IMG/VR virus record: IMGVR_UViG_3300021600_000007
Coordinates: 1 to 52,801 of that record
Origin: a virus
DNA: 52,801 nt
Strand: one strand, 5' to 3'
Made by a program: the position numbers and the translations under genes. Positions 3,051 to 45,491 of the stretch are shown here, piece after piece. Below the pieces are notes generated by a model. It had not been told where the DNA came from, ran no database searches, and saw only the letters and a program-made list of their open reading frames with translations. Every line of letters starts with the position of its first letter. Position 1 is the first letter of the stretch.

Positions 3051-4211
3051 TTAAACATCTTTACTACTACAACGTTCTCTATAATAATCTTTGAGCTCTT
3101 CTTCTTTGAAATTTGATATGTAATCATAGATGTCTAACCATTCAACATCATCCACACCAAAGTCTTCATTTTTAACTAACCAACTGAGTTCATCAATAAC
3201 TCCCTGATAAAACTCTTCTTCATCATCGTAATCACATGGGTACATTGAATTTTCAATCAGACTATCTATTAGTCTGTCGACAATACTCATTTTTCTTTTG
3301 AACCTATTTGAAACTTCAATCTTTTTGGATTCATACAAATCGTGATTATTACAATTTTCATAATAAAACTCTTTCAATCCATTAATCATATGTTCCTCAA
3401 CATATTTAACACCTTCATCATAAGTTAACCAATCTGACACAGGTGTCCCATCTTCATTTTCACCTTCAGAAATTATATCTCTAATTTCGTTATGAACTCC
3501 TAACATAAATTCCGTGAAATTATCAAACTCACAAGGGTATTGAAAAGCGAAAGATTGTTTAATTAAACTTTTAAACCAATAATTTCTTCTTTTAAACTTA
3601 TTGGAATATTCGGTTTCTTCTTTCAATACTCTTCTAATAGATTCCTTTAAAGAATTCTTAATAAGATTATTGTCTTTCAAATATTCAAACATGGATTTGG
3701 CCAATTTTTCACCGAACTTAATGTCAGAAGGATAATGAGCCTTTGCCATTAGTCGAGAGTATTCAATGTCTTTAACTATCTTATCAAAATCTTTTTTATA
3801 ATTCGGATATAAATCATTTAAAACTAAACCTAATAGATTTGATTGTGTTGAATGACCTGATGGGTAAGAATACCCTTTTGTGGATTTTATTGATGGGTCT
3901 TTAAAATCATGGTCTAACTTAAATGGTCTTGGTCTTTTAAAATAATCTTTTAATTCTAATATAACGTCAACCGCATCAAGTACTATTTTTCTTAATAGTT
4001 TCTTATCATACTTAACTTTTTTACTGTCCAAAAAATGAAAGAAGTTACCAATTAAATCATCTTTTTCTTGAAAAAATTGTTTATCTAAATCAATTGTACT
4101 TAAGTATTTTAATTCTTTCTTTGTTTTCTCACTATCATTTTTTGGTGGTAGTTCTTTTTTAAAAGGTGAGACATTAAAATCCTTATATAAATTAGTATCT
4201 TTTGATGCCAT
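3051..4211 (-). CDS. PAP2-superfamily phosphatase with duplicated C-terminal domain, 386 aa
   Basis: The N-terminal half carries the three PAP2 (class A acid phosphatase/lipid phosphatase) motifs in order: KDYFKRPRP (88-96), PSGH (117-120) and SRLMAKAHYPSD (152-163), which include the phosphate-binding Arg and Lys and the catalytic His. There is no signal peptide and no obvious set of membrane helices, so a soluble phosphomonoesterase is more likely than a lipid phosphatase. From about residue 190 a KESIRRVLKEE tag-like linker is followed by two similar 80-90 residue units, each starting N-[KR]-F-K-R and ending in a KE-[FL]-x-x-Y-Y/YRE-x-C pattern. Its ATG overlaps the stop of the upstream gene, so the two are translationally coupled. 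The substrate is unknown. Confidence 0.75.
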   Translation of the reverse strand: MASKDTNLYKDFNVSPFKKELPPKNDSEKTKKELKYLSTIDLDKQFFQEKDDLIGNFFHFLDSKKVKYDKKLLRKIVLDAVDVILELKDYFKRPRPFKLDHDFKDPSIKSTKGYSYPSGHSTQSNLLGLVLNDLYPNYKKDFDKIVKDIEYSRLMAKAHYPSDIKFGEKLAKSMFEYLKDNNLIKNSLKESIRRVLKEETEYSNKFKRRNYWFKSLIKQSFAFQYPCEFDNFTEFMLGVHNEIRDIISEGENEDGTPVSDWLTYDEGVKYVEEHMINGLKEFYYENCNNHDLYESKKIEVSNRFKRKMSIVDRLIDSLIENSMYPCDYDDEEEFYQGVIDELSWLVKNEDFGVDDVEWLDIYDYISNFKEEELKDYYRERCSSKDV

Positions 4212-4883: not shown

Positions 4884-4909
4884 AAAACCCCCACATTTCT
4901 GTGAGGGTT
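4884..4909 (-). terminator. intrinsic terminator
   Basis: CCCTCAC and GTGGGGG pair around an AGAAAT loop and are followed by five T on the minus strand, just after the stop of the T9SS-sorted gene. It is one of the near-identical terminators repeated in the window. Confidence 0.85.
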
Positions 4910-4913
4910 AATT

Positions 4914-7133
4914 TTATTTTAAAACATTCAAACTACCTGATAATACTTTTCGATAGTCAGTCTTTAATGCTTTGAGTTCTACATTCCATGTATAAATTCC
5001 GATTGGTACCATTCGATTATTAAACGTTCCATCCCATCCCTCTTCAATATCATGAGATTCCCATATAATTTCACCCCATCTATTAAATAATGTCATCTTG
5101 TATCCGTAAATGTCAAACCCTGAAGTTACTATAGGTAACCATGTATTGTTATGTTCATCACCATCAGGAGTAAACGAGTTTGGAATATATAAAATGTCTT
5201 GAGGACATTGGATTATGGTTATTACTGTTTCTTGTTGTGGTGATGCACATTCATTAACATAATTCACAACAGATAATGTAAACATTCCAAATTCATTCCA
5301 ACTTGTATTAAATGTTTCAGTTTGTGTTGTATTGTTTAATAATGTCCATTCGTTATATCCACCAGGAACTGTTGAAACAATACTATATATACTTGGTATT
5401 GAATCTCCATCACATAGTTCAAAGAAATCGTTGTATGGAGTTATTTGAGAGATTGTTGGTCTTTCATAAACAATGATGTTTGTTGTTGTATCAAAGATAC
5501 ATCCACTTTGAATATATGTGTATGTAATATTATTGTTTAATGTATCCGCATTGGATGGGTAGAAATCATTTCCTGTAATTCCTGTACCATTAAACACTCC
5601 TCCGATTGGTGTTGCGCTTAATGTGGTAAATTCATCGTTGGAACAAAATGGTCCAATAGGTGTTATAACGGGAATTACATTAAAGATTGTAATGTCGAAC
5701 GATACAGGTACACTTATACATCCATTTGGACTTACGGCAACCATGTCAACCGCATTTGGAATGAACCCTGCAGGAAACCCTGACCAATCAACAACGATTG
5801 AATCTGTTCCTTGACCTGAAACAATATTACCAACTGACATCCATTGATATGTGTATCCAATACCTAAATCAGTTGTGGTATATACTATATTTGTTGATTC
5901 ATAACATACCGTATCTGAAGCGATGATTGGGTTTGCAATTACAGGTAATGGATTAACTAATGTTGCTCCACCTGAAACGGTACATCCTGCGGCATCGACA
6001 ACGGTGAATGAATATGCTCCCGCACATAAATTATTTATTGTGAACGATGGTAATTGACCATTCCAAGAAATGGTGATAACACCTGTTCCTCCAATTGATA
6101 TTACATTAATTGCGCCATCACAACTACCTGTACAATTTGGATTGAATGTTGTTACAATTGGTGGTGGTAAATTTGGTGGACCTGGTGCAACAAAAACCGT
6201 ATCAGGTCCTAAGTTACCCGTATTTAAATTACAGGATGTCCATCCCGCATTACATGTTGGGTATACAAAATGACAAGTATAGTTTGTTCCTCCTGCAGGT
6301 GGTGTAACCGTAATGGTTGGTCCCGTTCCTATTGGAGTTGAGTTACCTACCTGATACCAAGTTAACGTTGGAGTAACTACAGGACCGCTTGGTGTCCATC
6401 TGTAAGCATCATTGTTTGCCGTCCAAGCAGTTGAGTTTCTACCTGCAACAGCAATACCAATAGTTCCACCTAAATTATGTATCCCTTGTGTTGATGTACC
6501 TCCTTGCCATTGTAAACACGCAGGTTTACTTTGAATGTAACTCTCAATATTGTTGGATGATTCGTATATTACAATATGAAAAGTTCCTTGATTACCTGTA
6601 CAAGAAAACATAGGAACTCCAATCCAACTAACAACAAGTTTTCTACATGGTGCAACTCCTTGAACTTGATATTTGATTTGACCTCCAATACCAGGATGCC
6701 AATCTTGCCAAGGTCCCATGATACAATTCTTAGGCACTAACGGATTAGCCGTTGGGATTGGTTGAGATGTAAACGTTACGGGTTGTCCTCCACTGAATGA
6801 AATCCAACCATTAGACCCAACATAAAATTGAGTATAGGTTGTACCAAAGAAACAGAAGTTAAACCCAATACTAAATGGTCCTTGTTGGGAATCATCTGTC
6901 ATAAACAAACTTGTCCCTGTGTTGGTTTGAGCAACGTACGGTATGTTAGTAACACCGTAGTTTGTTGTTTGATTTGGGTTTACACCACCTCCACCACATT
7001 GGGATAGGTTAGCGGTTAATGTTGTCGTACCAATACCACATGGAAGTAATTGGTCAGGTCCTAAATCAGGACAATACTGCGTATACCCCATAGACGTTAA
7101 TAGGGTTAAAAATAAAATAGTTAGTAATCTCAT
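4914..7133 (-). CDS. secreted adhesin-like protein with T9SS type B sorting domain, 739 aa
   Basis: Start 7133 gives a classic signal peptide (MRLLTILFLTLLTSMGYTQ); an upstream in-frame ATG at 7226 would bury it. The mature protein is Cys-, Gly-, Thr- and Pro-rich with beta-rich repeats, including a SprB-like unit near the middle (CTGSCDGAINV, then GAYSFTVVDAAGCTV). The last 95 residues match the gliding-motility C-terminal (CHU_C) T9SS type B signal: IPNSFTPDGDEHNN, FNRWGEIIWES, GWDGTFNN and GIYTWNVELKA. In Bacteroidota this domain directs export through the type IX system and surface attachment. Here it is flanked by phage genes, which is unusual. A possible role is a host-surface adhesin, receptor decoy or modifier. 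Composition matches its neighbours. Confidence 0.85.
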   Translation of the reverse strand: MRLLTILFLTLLTSMGYTQYCPDLGPDQLLPCGIGTTTLTANLSQCGGGGVNPNQTTNYGVTNIPYVAQTNTGTSLFMTDDSQQGPFSIGFNFCFFGTTYTQFYVGSNGWISFSGGQPVTFTSQPIPTANPLVPKNCIMGPWQDWHPGIGGQIKYQVQGVAPCRKLVVSWIGVPMFSCTGNQGTFHIVIYESSNNIESYIQSKPACLQWQGGTSTQGIHNLGGTIGIAVAGRNSTAWTANNDAYRWTPSGPVVTPTLTWYQVGNSTPIGTGPTITVTPPAGGTNYTCHFVYPTCNAGWTSCNLNTGNLGPDTVFVAPGPPNLPPPIVTTFNPNCTGSCDGAINVISIGGTGVITISWNGQLPSFTINNLCAGAYSFTVVDAAGCTVSGGATLVNPLPVIANPIIASDTVCYESTNIVYTTTDLGIGYTYQWMSVGNIVSGQGTDSIVVDWSGFPAGFIPNAVDMVAVSPNGCISVPVSFDITIFNVIPVITPIGPFCSNDEFTTLSATPIGGVFNGTGITGNDFYPSNADTLNNNITYTYIQSGCIFDTTTNIIVYERPTISQITPYNDFFELCDGDSIPSIYSIVSTVPGGYNEWTLLNNTTQTETFNTSWNEFGMFTLSVVNYVNECASPQQETVITIIQCPQDILYIPNSFTPDGDEHNNTWLPIVTSGFDIYGYKMTLFNRWGEIIWESHDIEEGWDGTFNNRMVPIGIYTWNVELKALKTDYRKVLSGSLNVLK

Positions 7134-7250
7134 ATTGATAATTAGTTTAGTGTCCAATATATTAGACGTTAGTTCAACGTTAAAGTACGATGAATGAATA
7201 ATAATACTTATATTTTTATTATTCAACTATTTTCAACAATTAATAATTAC

Positions 7251-7549: not shown

Positions 7550-7897
7550 ATGAGTAATACCACCAAAATAGAAAAAGTTATTAGTAAAATTATTGTACCT
7601 CAGCATCCTGAGTTGTTAGAATTTGAAGTTAAAGATTTATTTGAAGATATGTATGACTCAGGAACTACATTAGGTCAACAAATGTTGGGTCGTCAATATG
7701 TTATAGAGTTTATCACATCGGAATGTTTAGATACAAAGAAACAAATGGAAATCGATACTGAGGTAAAATCATTATTTGTGATGTTATCTCCTGATGTCAA
7801 CAATCTCCATCAGAAAACACCAAAAATATCATGTTTCTTTGATTGTGAAGATGGTGAAGGATTTGTATTTAACTCAGAATATGGGTACAATCATTAA
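7550..7897 (+). CDS. hypothetical protein, 115 aa
   Basis: Unrecognised, acidic. AGTATTTATTATAAC directly upstream contains the TATTTATW motif proposed here as a phage promoter. The last four bases overlap the convergent phosphoesterase gene. Confidence 0.65.
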   Translation: MSNTTKIEKVISKIIVPQHPELLEFEVKDLFEDMYDSGTTLGQQMLGRQYVIEFITSECLDTKKQMEIDTEVKSLFVMLSPDVNNLHQKTPKISCFFDCEDGEGFVFNSEYGYNH

Positions 7898-8610
7898 CCC
7901 ATATTAATTATTGACCATTTACCGTCAAAATCCTCAACCAAACAAGTCGCATTCTCACAGAAATCACCTGAATTCATATAGTCCTCAGTTAATTTTGGTT
8001 GGTGGATATGTCCACATACCGCAACATCACAACCTTTACTCTTTGTCAATCCTTTAGCGTTTTCTTCAAAGTCAGATACAAAATTGATTGCTCCCTTAAC
8101 ACTTTGTTTAATATCATTTGCTAATGAATGATAAGGTAAGTTAAACTTTCTCCTGAAAAAATTATATGTGGTATTCAATCTTATTACCAAGTCATAAGAT
8201 ATACCACCAATTATTGCTAACCATCTTACTTTCATAATAACAAAGTCAAGAACGTCTCCGTGAAAACAATAGTACTTTCTACCATCGGCTCCAATGTGAG
8301 TATATTTCCTGACAATTTGAATGTTATTCATAAAGAATGGTACAAATGGTTTTAGAAAATCATCGTGATTACCTCTAATGTAAACCACTTTTGTTCCTGT
8401 CTCACTTCTCTTCATAAATCTTCGGAATATTTTGGAACATTCTTTTTTCCATTTTCCTCCACTTTTAAGTGCCCATCCATCAATGATGTCACCATTTAAA
8501 ATTAATGTCTCAGACTGATTATTTTCCAAGAATTTAATAATCTTGTCTGTTTGTGATTGTCGCGCACCAAGATGCAAATCACTCATTATTATTGTTCTCC
8601 ATGTGTTCAT
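7894..8610 (-). CDS. calcineurin-like phosphoesterase, LpxH/UDP-diacylglucosamine pyrophosphatase type, 238 aa
   Basis: All metallophosphoesterase motifs are present in order: SDLHLG (D-x-H), NGDIIDGW (GD), RGNHDD (GNHD), CFHGD and GHIHQP (GHxH). Overall order and length match UDP-2,3-diacylglucosamine diphosphatases (LpxH/YbbF-like), which cut a pyrophosphate in lipid A synthesis. The start at 8610 (MNTWRTII) makes an ATGA overlap with the stop of the glycosyltransferase gene, so translation is coupled. In this operon it probably acts on a lipid-linked or nucleotide-linked sugar intermediate; a general phosphodiesterase cannot be excluded. Confidence 0.85.
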   Translation of the reverse strand: MNTWRTIIMSDLHLGARQSQTDKIIKFLENNQSETLILNGDIIDGWALKSGGKWKKECSKIFRRFMKRSETGTKVVYIRGNHDDFLKPFVPFFMNNIQIVRKYTHIGADGRKYYCFHGDVLDFVIMKVRWLAIIGGISYDLVIRLNTTYNFFRRKFNLPYHSLANDIKQSVKGAINFVSDFEENAKGLTKSKGCDVAVCGHIHQPKLTEDYMNSGDFCENATCLVEDFDGKWSIINMG

Positions 8611-9338
8611 GACCAATAACTCTTACTGTCTTTAAAATATTCTTTATTGTTTTTATTTAGGACCGACCCAATCATTAATTTGGTCATGTACCACAAACCT
8701 TTATTATGGAATCTTCTTGGTGGTGTGTATACAAAAGCATTATGTATTTTAAACATATTACTTTTTATTTGTTTAGAGTAAACATAATCTTCAGCAACTT
8801 TAGCTTCTTCATCAAACCCACCAATTTCTTTGAATTTTGATGTCTTTGTTAACATGAATCCACCTAAGCAGAATGGCGATATTAACATTGAAAGTTTTTG
8901 TAGGATGTCAAAAATCTTATAAACATAATTGTAGTTTCCGTTGTCAGTTCTGAACCTAACACTAACTAAGTCTAAGTTTTCATTTTTTATCTTTGATACA
9001 ACGTTATTTAACAATTCACTATCCAATAAGAATATGTCAGCATCCATGAATAAAACATATGGTGTTGAAACTAATTTAAAACCGTTATTTCTTGCGGTAG
9101 CAGGTAACCCACCTTCCATCAAATTTAAATTGAAGTTATCTGTAATCGAATCGTATTCCAATCTGTCTAATAATGATGGTTTTGTTATTCCATCATTTGA
9201 TGAATCACACACAACAACTTTAACTCCATAAATATTTGTTTGATGGTTTAATAAATCTAATGTCTTAAATATAATATCTTTCTCGTTCTTACAAGGAATG
9301 ACAATAGTTAATAAATCACTTAATTTCATATTACTCAT
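8607..9338 (-). CDS. family 2 glycosyltransferase, 243 aa
   Basis: A GT-A fold is indicated by TIVIPCKNEKD at the N-terminus, VVVCDSSND, GGLPATARNNG, the D-x-D-type metal site MDADIF, GGFDEEAKVAEDY containing the likely catalytic acidic residues, and a C-terminal cluster of basic and aromatic residues. No strong transmembrane helix is evident, though LSMLISPFCLGGFML is hydrophobic. It is the middle gene of a three-gene operon, overlapping the phosphoesterase by four bases and following the cytidylyltransferase-like gene by six. The likely role is transfer of a sugar to an envelope, virion or lipid acceptor. Confidence 0.85.
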   Translation of the reverse strand: MSNMKLSDLLTIVIPCKNEKDIIFKTLDLLNHQTNIYGVKVVVCDSSNDGITKPSLLDRLEYDSITDNFNLNLMEGGLPATARNNGFKLVSTPYVLFMDADIFLLDSELLNNVVSKIKNENLDLVSVRFRTDNGNYNYVYKIFDILQKLSMLISPFCLGGFMLTKTSKFKEIGGFDEEAKVAEDYVYSKQIKSNMFKIHNAFVYTPPRRFHNKGLWYMTKLMIGSVLNKNNKEYFKDSKSYWS

Positions 9339-26652: not shown

Positions 26653-26667
26653 TTTTTTTTTGTTTAG

Positions 26668-26739
26668 TTGCGGGGGAAGGATTCGAACCTCCGACCTACG
26701 GGTTATGAGCCCGTCAAGCTACCACTGCTCTACCCCACG
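26668..26739 (-). tRNA. initiator tRNA-fMet (CAT), 72 nt
   Basis: Cloverleaf on the minus strand: acceptor CGTGGGG/CCCCGCA, D-arm GAGC...GCTT, anticodon arm ACGGG-CTCATAA-CCCGT, T-arm with TTCGAAT. Two initiator hallmarks are present: an unpaired C1-A72 at the end of the acceptor and three G-C pairs at the base of the anticodon loop. Discriminator A73 is followed by CTA, so CCA is not fully encoded. It lies upstream of the giant RNA promoter and downstream of two further promoters. Confidence 0.93.
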
Positions 26740-30660: not shown

Positions 30661-31512
30661 TTATTTAAATTCCATTTCAATTTGTTTATTCTTATCTATA
30701 AAATGTTGGACTCTTTCTTGAGCAACTTTATTATAATTTTCACTTAATTCTATTCCAATCCATCTTCTACCACTAATCTCTGCAGCAACCATACTTGTTC
30801 CACTACCACAGAATGGGTCAAGGACAACATCATTCTTATATGTAAGAATCTTAATAGCTTTCATTGGAATATCCATTGAGAAAGTTGCTTTAGTTTGTTG
30901 TCTTGTATCGGCAAAATATTCCCACTGACCATAAACCAAAGACATAAATTCTTTTTTGTCCTCATCTTGATAAACGGCTTTAGTTTTTACGGTACCATCT
31001 TCTTGTTCTAAGTCAACCATCTCAGATTTCCATTGTGGTTCACCTTTAATTTTTTTGATACGGTCTTTCTTGTAAGCCAAGATAACACATTCCTTTGGGT
31101 TGTATATGTAAGGACTTGATGGACTCATCCATGAACCCCAAGCTGTGGTCTTACTTCTGTGTGGTGAATTCTCATCAAGGTCAACAAGACCATAAAACTT
31201 AAACCCGACCTCTTTCATGATGGTCCAAAACTCTGACATGAACAATACTCGTCCACCTCTGTCCTGTACGTTTACTTCGTAAGGAATGTTTACCGCAATC
31301 CTTCCATCATCTTTTAATGTGTTGTAGGCTTCGGTTAACCATTGTCGTGAAAACTCCCAATAGTCCTCCATACTCATTCTGTCGTCATGACTATCGTAGT
31401 CAATTCCAACATTATATGGTGGTGATGTCACAACCAAATCAACACAACCCTCAGGTAATGTTTTCATTACCTCAATACAATCACCTTGTAATATTTTTCC
31501 CGTTTCTATCAT
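30661..31512 (-). CDS. DNA methyltransferase, N4-cytosine/N6-adenine, beta class, 283 aa
   Basis: The catalytic motif VVTSPPYNVG (S-P-P-Y) precedes the SAM-binding DPFCGSGTSMVAA, the beta-class order. RRWIGIELSENY follows as motif II. TSPPY is more frequent in N4-cytosine enzymes, but N6-adenine is possible. No cognate restriction gene is adjacent, so it is likely an orphan protecting phage DNA. It overlaps the DUF3310 gene by four bases. Confidence 0.9.
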   Translation of the reverse strand: MIETGKILQGDCIEVMKTLPEGCVDLVVTSPPYNVGIDYDSHDDRMSMEDYWEFSRQWLTEAYNTLKDDGRIAVNIPYEVNVQDRGGRVLFMSEFWTIMKEVGFKFYGLVDLDENSPHRSKTTAWGSWMSPSSPYIYNPKECVILAYKKDRIKKIKGEPQWKSEMVDLEQEDGTVKTKAVYQDEDKKEFMSLVYGQWEYFADTRQQTKATFSMDIPMKAIKILTYKNDVVLDPFCGSGTSMVAAEISGRRWIGIELSENYNKVAQERVQHFIDKNKQIEMEFK

Positions 31513-31900: not shown

Positions 31901-33106
31901 TTATTTCCCATTTAAATTAAACTTTATTTCCTCAGGTTTTGTATTCGCCTTGGACTCCATCATCTCAGATGTTAATTCATATTCTTCATCATTTTGATAC
32001 TCATTGAGTAATTCTTCATTTGAAAGTGTGCCAAACTTTTCATTTAAATCACTAGTATTATAATCACTCATATTATTTTTCATGGTCATAAGTTCTTCCG
32101 CAAATTTTAAACTATCCAAAATTACTTTTGTAACTCTATATGGGTCAGCGTTTGAACCTGGTCTTCTATCTTCCAAATATCCTGTCCAAGATGATGCCGT
32201 AGATATAGGAACTCTAATTGACGCTCCTCTGTCAGCAATACCCCAAGAGAATTTATCCATTGATTGTGTTTCGTTTTTACCAGTCAATCTGTATTCATTA
32301 CCAGAACCATAATTTTTAATATGAACATCATGTCTTGATTCAAATGCATTGAAAATAGATTTGAAGTACTCTTCACCACCTTCAGTTCTCATTCTTTCAT
32401 TGGAGAAGTTGCAGTGCATTCCTGAACCATTCCAATCGCCATGTCTTATTGGTTTTGGATTCAAATCAATATTTAAATTATAATACTCAGCAACTTTGTA
32501 TAACAAATAACGAGACATCCACAAATCATCAGATGCTTTAATCGCTCCTTTAGAGAATAGTTGGTATTCCCATTGACCTAACAAAACTTCAGCATTTACA
32601 CCAGTAATGTCTAATCCAGCATTTAAACATAGTTGTAAGTGCATGTCAACAAATTCTCTTTCTGACACATTTTTTGTACCTACACCACAATAATATTCTC
32701 CTTGATGTTTAGGAAATCCTTTTTCAGGAAATCCAGCGATATTACCGTCTTTGGTTTTTAGAACATATTCTTGTTCAAATCCAAACCATATAGAATCATC
32801 ATCTAAACCTATTTCAGCTCTTAAATTAGATTTGTGTTCATTCCCAGTCATTGGGTCCATTACCTCGCACAAAACATAGTTAGTTGCATATTGACTAATA
32901 TCAAATGACGGATAAAGTCTTACAGGTCGGAGAATACAATCTGAAAAATTACCTTCAGCTTGTTTAGTAGATGAACCATCAAACGACCATAATGGTAAGT
33001 CATCCAATCCAAATTCCATTGGTAAATCAAGGATTTTAATTTTACTTCTTAAATTTGGTTCGGGACTGTATCCATCTAACCAAATATATTCTAATTTAGT
33101 TTTCAT
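31901..33106 (-). CDS. glutamine synthetase, type II (eukaryotic-like), 401 aa
   Basis: LPLWSFDGSSTKQAEG, WFGFEQEYVL, EYYCGVG, INGEV-like VNAEVLLGQWEYQ, GDWNGSGMHCN, GSGNEYRLTG, FSWGIADRGASIRVP and LEDRRPGSNADPY are the GSII core, including metal-binding Glu and the adenine and glutamate site residues. The enzyme makes glutamine from glutamate, ammonia and ATP. The core ends near residue 350; an acidic tail of about 45 residues is extra. Bacteroidota hosts have GSII genes, so host acquisition is plausible. No regulator or transporter is adjacent. Active-site motifs look intact. Confidence 0.93.
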   Translation of the reverse strand: MKTKLEYIWLDGYSPEPNLRSKIKILDLPMEFGLDDLPLWSFDGSSTKQAEGNFSDCILRPVRLYPSFDISQYATNYVLCEVMDPMTGNEHKSNLRAEIGLDDDSIWFGFEQEYVLKTKDGNIAGFPEKGFPKHQGEYYCGVGTKNVSEREFVDMHLQLCLNAGLDITGVNAEVLLGQWEYQLFSKGAIKASDDLWMSRYLLYKVAEYYNLNIDLNPKPIRHGDWNGSGMHCNFSNERMRTEGGEEYFKSIFNAFESRHDVHIKNYGSGNEYRLTGKNETQSMDKFSWGIADRGASIRVPISTASSWTGYLEDRRPGSNADPYRVTKVILDSLKFAEELMTMKNNMSDYNTSDLNEKFGTLSNEELLNEYQNDEEYELTSEMMESKANTKPEEIKFNLNGK

Positions 33107-43347: not shown

Positions 43348-44187
43348 TCAATAATTCAAGATTAACAACTCTTCCCCCATATTTTGTTTTGTTCCCTTCT
43401 TAGCTGCAGCCGCTTTAGCAAACTCTTTCTTCTCCCAACGGTACTGTCCTTCAGGAAACCACTCGTGTAATAACTCAAAATCGTAATAGGATAAACTGAA
43501 TTTACCTTGAACATTATGTAAGACATTTGCAAGTCTTTCATGGTCTTTTCTGTCAAAGTCATGGTTACTATAATAGTTTTCAGTTTTCCAGTATGGTGGG
43601 TCTAAATAGATGTAGGTTGTTGGAGAATCATACTTTTTAATAACATCAGCAAAATCCATATTCTCAACCTCAGTGATTTTTAGGAAATGTTCTACCCAAT
43701 CAGGTTTAGATAACTTATCTCTAAATGTAAGGTACTTTGATTTGTATTTACCTTTTAAGTCAATAAATGAACTTGTTTCAGGTTTACTACCACTGAATAC
43801 CTGTGTTAAGACATAGGCATATTTGGCGGCGATTTCATAATTTTCAGGTTTTAAGCTTAAATCTTTATCAAAAATTTCAGCCTGAAAGCTTATAAACTGT
43901 TCTTTATATATAGATGGTGTAATTTCTTCACCAAATTGTTGACATGGGATTGCATTGATTGATTCTAATAATCTTTCAGGATTCTTAATACATTGAAATA
44001 AATTGTAGTTAAGTGGGTTGAAGTCATTATAAACAACTTTCTTAAGATTTGGGAATTGTTTTAAGTCCATGTTGAAGAAACACCAAAACATCCCTCCAAA
44101 TGTTTCGACATATGTTTCAATGTCTTTATCATAGAAAGGGACAATCCACTTTCCAATTTTACTTTTACCTCCAATGTATGATAGCAT
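43348..44187 (-). CDS. Dam-like adenine-N6 DNA methyltransferase, 279 aa
   Basis: MLSYIGGKSKIGKWIVPF is the N-terminal SAM-binding F-x-G-x-K-type motif, with YVETFGGMF next, and YIYLDPPYWKTENYY the catalytic D-P-P-Y: the alpha-class order of D12 (Dam) methylases. Start 44187 is the natural family N-terminus; an ATG at 44232 adds a basic extension without support. Target probably a short adenine-containing site; no restriction partner adjacent. Confidence 0.9.
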   Translation of the reverse strand: MLSYIGGKSKIGKWIVPFYDKDIETYVETFGGMFWCFFNMDLKQFPNLKKVVYNDFNPLNYNLFQCIKNPERLLESINAIPCQQFGEEITPSIYKEQFISFQAEIFDKDLSLKPENYEIAAKYAYVLTQVFSGSKPETSSFIDLKGKYKSKYLTFRDKLSKPDWVEHFLKITEVENMDFADVIKKYDSPTTYIYLDPPYWKTENYYSNHDFDRKDHERLANVLHNVQGKFSLSYYDFELLHEWFPEGQYRWEKKEFAKAAAAKKGTKQNMGEELLILNY

Positions 44188-44235
44188 ATTTTTACTTTTA
44201 TAAAAGTATAAGTAAAAAATACGAAAAGGCAAATT

Positions 44236-44422: not shown

Positions 44423-44569
44423 ATGTCAGAAACTGGTTGTAAAAAATGTAAACAAAAAGGTCCTAGTAATTTTCAAATAGGTTCAATAATTTTAGGTGTC
44501 TATATTATAGTGACATCAATATACGGAACGATTGAATTTGTTAAAGATATTGTAGGATATTTTAAATAG
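44423..44569 (+). CDS. small membrane protein, 48 aa
   Basis: Reads MSETGCKKCKQKGPSNFQIG, then SIILGVYIIVTSIYGTIEFV. A C-x-x-C knuckle precedes a single membrane helix. Divergent from the Cys-rich gene with a ten-base gap, and its stop overlaps the convergent dnaJ by eight bases. Possibly a membrane-anchored zinc protein; function unknown. Confidence 0.65.
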   Translation: MSETGCKKCKQKGPSNFQIGSIILGVYIIVTSIYGTIEFVKDIVGYFK

Positions 44570-45491
44570 GTCTGTTAAATTTAACATTTAATTTAACATA
44601 CATATCTCCGCTATTATATCCCTTACCCTTTAATCTTAAAGGTTTAGAGCTATCAAATATTGGTAAAGCGTTCATTACCAAATCACCATTTGGATGTGGA
44701 ATATTAAATTTATCCTGTTGGATTTGTTCTAAATCTAAGAATAGATTATAAATCAAATCATTATTAATTTTTTCATAACCATCTTGGTTAACCATTTCAA
44801 TTTGAATAACTAAATCACCGTATTCACCGTTTCTAAAATCACCTAAATTACCAACTTTAAGGTATTGTCCATTGTCAACCCCAATTGGTAGTTTAACTGT
44901 AACCTCATGATTTTGTGGTTTAACCCCTTTACCATCACAATGATAACATCTATGTGTTAAAGTATGTCCTCGACCTGCACAAGTGCCACAAGCGGTTCTA
45001 ATTTGTTGAACCATGAATCCTGTACCAAATGTTTTTATTTGGAATCCAGCTCCTCCACAAGTCCCACAAGGTTGTTGTTCTCCACCACTACCAGAACAAA
45101 TGTTACAATGATTGTCTTTTATATAGTTAATCACCTTATCAACTCCTTTAAACGATTCAATCGGATTAACCTGAACTTTGATTATTTTATCGGGTGCAGA
45201 TTTTCTTCTTTGATTGAATGGATTTTGTTGTTGTCCAAACATTTGATTAAAAATCTCCTCATAAGACATTCCGCCATTACCAGCAAATGGATTGTTTAAG
45301 TTGTTATTGTATTGAGCTCGTTTTGCCTCATCACCGATTATACCATATGCAACCGTAATCTCTTTAAATTTCTCAGCACCTTCAGGATTTACATCAGGAT
45401 GGTACTGTTTACTTAATTTTCTGTAAGCCTTTTTGATTTCATCTTGTGTAGCATCTTTACTTACACCTAAAATTTCGTAATAATTATTCAT
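44562..45491 (-). CDS. dnaJ: DnaJ-family co-chaperone, 309 aa
   Basis: J domain at the start (YYEILGVSKDATQDEIKKAY, then QYHPDVNPE with the HPD that stimulates DnaK ATPase). A short Gly/Phe/Asn-rich linker is followed by a zinc cradle (CNICSGSGG, CGTCGGAG, CGTCAGRG, CYHCDGKG) and C-terminal substrate-binding beta domains. About 60 residues shorter than cellular DnaJ, with no dimerisation tail. It would recruit host DnaK to phage proteins. The ATG is two bases from the divergent gene at 45494. Confidence 0.93.
   Translation of the reverse strand: MNNYYEILGVSKDATQDEIKKAYRKLSKQYHPDVNPEGAEKFKEITVAYGIIGDEAKRAQYNNNLNNPFAGNGGMSYEEIFNQMFGQQQNPFNQRRKSAPDKIIKVQVNPIESFKGVDKVINYIKDNHCNICSGSGGEQQPCGTCGGAGFQIKTFGTGFMVQQIRTACGTCAGRGHTLTHRCYHCDGKGVKPQNHEVTVKLPIGVDNGQYLKVGNLGDFRNGEYGDLVIQIEMVNQDGYEKINNDLIYNLFLDLEQIQQDKFNIPHPNGDLVMNALPIFDSSKPLRLKGKGYNSGDMYVKLNVKFNRPI

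Follow-up and report, generated by a model that had tools for sequence, protein, structure and literature searches.

A conserved and mobile family of phage proteins with a type B T9SS sorting domain, very probably displayed on the host cell surface

The window analysed here is the whole 52,801-nucleotide stretch of the IMG/VR virus record IMGVR_UViG_3300021600_000007. It encodes on the minus strand a type B cargo protein of the type IX secretion system (T9SS) of 739 aa (4914-7133, stop codon included), whose coding status is supported by the open frame, purifying selection and at least 165 viral relatives. The mechanical open reading frame is longer (4914-7226 (-), 770 aa, TTG start), but its true start is almost surely Met32, at 7133, where a normal signal peptide begins, in agreement with the gene end given in an earlier note on this DNA. 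In brief, the protein comprises, all on the minus strand: a signal peptide (residues 1-18; 7080-7133) with a predicted cut before Gln19 following the Q-rule, the pattern being found in the 80 phage copies placed by context; a conserved Cys-rich N-terminal module (residues 19-315; 6189-7079), recognized by its 76% mean pairwise identity, a structural model and bacterial homologues; an SprB-like repeat unit (residues ~322-396; 5946-6170), seen by alignment and matched by PF13573 in other members; a PKD-like (PKD_6) domain (residues 399-451; 5781-5939; PF19408, 22.9 bits against a cut-off of 25); and a type B T9SS sorting domain (CHU_C / Bac_Flav_CTERM; residues about 650-722; 4968-5186), matched by PF13585 and TIGR04131. 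A terminator-like hairpin of 10 pairs with a T tract (4886-4909 (-)), found by pattern scan, lies right after the stop codon; the region holds about as many terminator-like sites as shuffled sequences, and only the position of this one is telling.

The mature protein contains 12.1% Thr and 3.1% Cys (22 Cys), as expected from the Cys/Thr-rich composition reported before. The SprB-like unit proposed at the same time is matched by PF13573 in 22 of the 38 aligned relatives, but falls below Pfam significance in the window copy, where Pfam reports only PKD_6, slightly under its cut-off. Among these 38 relatives, PKD_6 is found in 31 and CHU_C in all, and the alignment indicates from none to about three copies of the SprB-like unit.

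The export signals are conserved. Starting from Met32, the signal peptide reads MRLLTILFLTLLTSMGYT and is followed by the mature N-terminus QYCP (Gln-Tyr-Cys-Pro). The peptides were judged by pattern and by eye (a charged start, then a hydrophobic stretch, and a small residue ahead of Gln), and in each of the 80 placed phage copies the predicted cut falls between Gly, Ser, Ala or Thr and a Gln; the sequence of the peptide drifts, with identities as low as 35%, yet these features are kept. A Gln straight after the signal peptidase I cut is the Bacteroidetes Q-rule, found on average in 71% of substrates in the phylum (PMC5837995), so that the signal peptide recognized earlier is of the Bacteroidetes type. 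At the other end of the protein, the C-terminal gliding-associated sorting domain is intact, scoring about 46 bits with TIGR04131 (45.9; cut-off 35) and about 46.7 with PF13585 (cut-off 27); the check with these two models that had been suggested thus gave two matches and no refutation. The type B domain was found in 38 of 38 aligned relatives, TIGR04131 matched in none of 14 control genomes, and dN/dS over the last 90 residues is 0.04-0.14. Judged by these signals, the product is very probably a T9SS protein displayed on the host surface.

The phage origin of the gene was examined with regard to the chimera worry raised in the earlier note, which found no support: a cargo gene with 84% identity and the same neighbours is present in the independent contigs L006 and L056. 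The cargo gene could be host DNA joined by assembly, or the window something other than phage, given that it holds no terminase, head or sheath gene and that homologues occur in bacteria; this has only a negligible probability, since the same gene and neighbours recur in independent contigs, the phage sequences form one clade apart from the bacterial ones, a 634-kb phage record holds a 53% full-length homologue and the window glutamine synthetase matches, among phage records, huge phages only. An assembly chimera or host contamination was accordingly ruled out by the independent contigs, the recurrence of the family, the phage clade and the glutamine synthetase. The phage record in question (LR745206, 634,780 bp) encodes, besides the 53%-identical full-length cargo protein, three further matches to the type B domain, of which one falls short of the curated cut-off. 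In a nucleotide search of phages with the first 8 kb of the window, it alone was matched, over the cargo gene only.

Terminase, head and sheath models gave no match in the window or in its nearest relative of 137 kb, so that phage identity rests on the IMG/VR assignment, an endolysin and a glutamine synthetase. The latter, of the GlnII kind (31901-33106 (-); NF041605, 354.7 bits, below its cut-off of 500), matched among 50,697 phage records only LR756501, LR756503 (735 kb), LR756502 (642 kb) and LR745206 (634 kb), and the endolysin is closest to that of LR745206 (67%); these matches make it most likely that the window belongs to a huge phage. Across gene-bearing records, TerL was detected in 13 of 31 (11 strong), a T4-type major head protein in 21 of 35 (some weak) and a tail sheath in 11 of 31. 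For five terminase genes (G007, G008, G025, G014 and G022), the large terminase match crosses several in-frame stops, as if an intron or insert were present. The window also encodes a calcineurin-like phosphoesterase, a family 2 glycosyltransferase and a PAP2 phosphatase near the cargo gene (7894-9338 (-) and 3051-4211 (-)), which are possible envelope-modifying genes, as well as a DnaJ-like protein (44562-45491 (-)), two DNA methyltransferases (30661-31512 (-); 43348-44232 (-)) and a tRNA-Met (26667-26739 (-)).

The family comprises at least 165 IMG/VR stretches, 137 relatives being retrieved with the window protein as query and 165 with the alignment; a search of a plasmid collection for cargo relatives returned none. 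From these, 80 fetched copies were placed by context and 38 members were aligned. The cargo gene is under purifying selection (dN/dS 0.07-0.25 over the whole gene, ten pairs). Mean pairwise identity is highest in residues 19-315 (76%), compared with 44% in the middle part and 50% in the C-terminal domain; between the two ends of the protein, identities correlate only weakly (r = 0.19, 703 pairs), as expected if the modules have been exchanged or tuned apart. In the protein tree, whose root is the midpoint and whose bacterial sampling was driven by the phage query, the phage copies form one clade (support 100/98) separate from 27 bacterial homologues, a topology that fits a single capture from Bacteroidota; the previous identification of a phage gene is borne out by this clade and by the number of viral stretches. 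Homologues of the N-terminal module are Bacteroidota surface-type proteins, which are larger, carry the module at their N-terminus and have the same domain order. Public databases also include proteins of uncultured phages that are named only after a gliding-motility C-terminal domain or an SprB repeat. A metagenome-assembled genome labelled Candidatus Competibacteraceae (L086, JACSSC010000022.1) contains a full SprA gene and the cargo family; because both are present, the bin is probably Bacteroidota or contaminated.

The cargo gene occupies more than one genomic context. In 35 of the 80 placed loci, it is flanked by the tail-tube gene (phrog_4542) on one side and, on the other, by either a 123-aa gene or the baseplate hub (phrog_150) and tape measure, all on one strand and following the gp23-like head and sheath genes of T4-like phages; the spacer before it measures 73-110 bp and the one after it, in most cases, 18 bp; in the window and in the 634-kb phage, the context differs from this tail operon. 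The cultured Flavobacterium phage immuto has sheath and tube proteins that are ~50% identical, and its tube-hub gap of 108 bp is empty. Among 68 informative tube relatives in viral contigs, 61 have no cargo at the tube-hub site (56 with the hub at most 700 bp away, 5 with other inserts) and 7 have it, a ratio that is not a census, these relatives being the best-scoring matches. Since most relatives lack an insert at the tube-hub junction, the tail can do without the cargo, which is a moron-like accessory insert and not a tail part; a tail structural protein was ruled out by the empty sites and the signal peptide. Mapped on the protein tree, the tail-operon label has to change 8 times, and well-supported branches enforce 6 of these changes; the gene has thus moved between T4-like tail operons and other contexts, at least 6 times according to the tree. 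At one of the seven occupied tube-hub sites (L187, 3841-5627), three consecutive small ORFs each have a predicted Q-rule signal peptide, the first two ending in HN and carrying no sorting domain and the third having one, which looks like a cargo split into separately exported parts.

Putative regulatory signals also vary with context. A terminator-like hairpin precedes the cargo gene in tail operons and follows it in the window; in one locus (L016), a hairpin of 12 pairs lies in the spacer before the cargo gene, and in other tail-operon loci it is visible by eye. A TATTTATA-type motif, which is the reverse complement of the T4 late promoter, is present shortly before many phage genes (in L016, L047, L009, L066, L043 and others), both in the tail-operon loci (54 of 110 upstream regions vs 8 of 575 internal control windows) and outside tail operons (113 of 283 upstream regions vs 4 of 1410 internal windows), and is a candidate phage promoter. 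The form TATTTAT occurs before the cargo gene in 22 of 33 different upstream regions from non-tail contexts (background 2.5%); in tail operons the exact form precedes 2 of 24 copies, and it is absent from the window copy. These motifs suggest that late expression is likely in many cargo copies. A scan for sigma-70 sites found them no more frequent than in shuffles.

The N-terminal module was modelled as nearly all-beta (pLDDT 90, pTM 0.86). Sequence and fold searches of the module against the PDB returned nothing at E 0.001, and 4 of the 53 members showed a weak nidogen-like Pfam signal, with E 0.0019 at best. With the whole model, the best fold matches were generic Ig-like chains and Aureispira grappling hook fragments, with TM-scores to the query of at most 0.22. 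Catalytic or toxin domains were sought in the cargo with Pfam, NCBIfam and PHROGs and none was found. The N-terminal module is probably the effector or binding part.

The earlier view that few phage genes carry a T9SS signal did not hold, as this family alone counts at least 165 stretches, many related records, one of them a cultured Flavobacterium phage, encode type A or B domains, and a report had already appeared in 2020 (PMC7468147). Indeed, type A sorting domains score over the cut-off in 10 of 26 phage records searched, so that phage T9SS cargo is broader than the type B family. The published case, Cryophage, was described as unique, with type A cargo among variable genes (PMC7468147). 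Its cargo resembles the present one in being phage-encoded, in bearing a T9SS sorting domain, in presumably using the host system and in having hosts in the same superphylum, but the domain is of type A, is attached to an endoglucanase, a glycoside hydrolase and a PA14 protein, and is found in variable genes of one phage, whereas the present family is conserved, non-enzymatic, of type B and spread across T4-like and huge phages. Furthermore, sorting-domain proteins have been noted near crAss-BACON genes (PMC6949934), and Porphyromonas gingivalis phages have been noted to encode Q-rule proteins (PMC10367356). The cultured Flavobacterium phage immuto encodes gp015 (YP_010114427.1), which likewise has a T9SS domain and a signal peptide ending in LYS before the Gln; unlike the window protein, it has 243 aa, carries a type A domain on a cohesin-like module and is encoded elsewhere in the genome. 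It is annotated only as a cohesin domain-containing protein, the type A T9SS domain being unmentioned, and the adjacent proteins gp014 and gp015 (NC_055915.1, 11598-13422) both have predicted Q-rule signal peptides. In the literature searched, which takes in only a minority of subscription journals, no report was found of a conserved type B phage family, of its insertion in a T4-like tail operon or of its movement to huge phages. The conserved, mobile type B family is a new form of phage T9SS cargo, which was already known with type A domains.

Among cellular proteins, the Flavobacterium type B adhesins including SprB share with the phage cargo a Sec signal, SprB/PKD-like beta units (in many phage members), a type B C-terminal domain and an expected need for PorP/SprF (PMC9143113, PMC12618676). 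In F. johnsoniae, 9 of 12 type B genes adjoin their own shuttle gene, whereas the phage cargo is without its own shuttle and has a distinct N-terminal module. SprB is also far longer than the phage cargo. The Bacteroidota chromosomal homologues (L085-L092) share an N-terminal module 46-60% identical and a C-terminal type B domain, but mostly have 1000-1430 aa and another middle part, are often encoded beside other type B proteins and fall outside the phage clade.

Type B cargo depends on a PorP/SprF-like shuttle both to be secreted and to be anchored, and the pairing is highly specific (PMC12618676, PMC9143113). Such a shuttle was sought in 23 phage records and none was found, so that a host shuttle would have to serve. 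SprA is present in all 16 searched genomes holding bacterial homologues, and three Bacteroidota genomes with homologues, which may not be those of the phage's host, each encode 17-20 PorP/SprF proteins. Export and the use of a host shuttle are inferred here from the established biology of the pathway. The missing shuttle, the tail-operon placement and the empty site go beyond the reading of the earlier note. During infection, the cargo would cross the inner membrane by Sec, and removal of its signal peptide would expose Gln19; the C-terminal domain would then direct passage through the SprA translocon, after which the protein would be kept on the cell surface by a host PorP/SprF-like shuttle and where the N-terminal module, borne on Ig-like spacers, may coat or bind a surface structure. 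The likeliest benefit would be that further phage are kept from adsorbing to the infected cell and, after lysis, to its debris.

What the cargo does at the surface is the less certain part. In Flavobacterium columnare, phage resistance arises through gld and spr mutations (PMC9233685), so that T9SS-made surface structures govern adsorption in this species. Phage T5 makes the envelope protein Llp, which blocks adsorption (PMC9586334); the likeness is in the proposed role only, Llp being a small periplasmic lipoprotein that acts on FhuA, with no relation in sequence or pathway. T9SS-governed adsorption and the Llp precedent together make adsorption blocking the first choice, with a change of adhesion or gliding close behind. 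By analogy, blocking is tentatively proposed as the role of the cargo, at somewhat short of an even chance, and the best explanation as a whole, namely a type B cargo of the host T9SS that is held by a shuttle and blocks further phage adsorption, may be correct but is itself rather more doubtful than probable. Many classical exclusion proteins are small and early-acting, but this cargo has 739 aa and is found among late genes in many copies; its N-terminal module has no functionally known relative, and the TATTTAT motif that precedes many other copies is missing from the window copy. Alternatively, the surface cargo could alter host behaviour by competing with or imitating adhesins such as SprB on PorP/SprF, changing gliding, aggregation or attachment in a way that brings progeny to new hosts. 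An architecture like that of type B adhesins (SprB and PKD units with a type B domain), larger bacterial homologues of surface type that share its domain order, and the need to obtain the shuttle from the host all speak for it; however, the T4-like copies lie among late tail genes, which leaves little time for such a change to act, and it is considered unlikely, though a serious contender.

Ig-like domains mediate surface binding in many proteins, and the cargo might instead act outside the infected cell as a released or surface adhesin or a toxin-like protein, against competitors or by holding debris and phage together. Inter-strain competition has been proposed for the Cryophage cargo (PMC7468147), but the absence of a catalytic or toxin domain in Pfam, NCBIfam and PHROGs searches and a signal of type B, not type A, which suggests anchoring, make action outside the infected cell improbable. 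It is more improbable still that the cargo is a virion component, such as a tail or head decoration or a host-binding fibre, with a C-terminal domain derived from the host. The tube-hub position in 35 of 80 loci and weak similarity to a Hoc-like family of head decorations (E 0.00014) would agree with this; the conserved Sec signal peptide is nevertheless wrong for a part assembled in the cytoplasm, relatives including immuto build a tail without the cargo, and other lineages carry it away from structural genes. A search of the literature naming phage immuto found no virion proteome. In a bolder reading, a mobile phage family might borrow the PorP/SprF shuttles of the host and thereby mask or displace host adhesins, as a T9SS-borne exclusion passed between T4-like and huge phages with a sorting domain tuned, separately from the effector, to the shuttle of each host; this is a speculative proposal, with perhaps one chance in several of being right.

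If the favoured reading is true, viruses of a major bacterial phylum would routinely exploit the secretion pathway of that phylum to remodel the surface of infected cells. The family offers a set of cases for testing, the empty site has been mapped in relatives of a cultured phage, and each phage sorting domain should, as a prediction, fit a shuttle of the real host. Shuttle fit could thereby link uncultured huge phages to their hosts, and superinfection control in Bacteroidota would be made testable.
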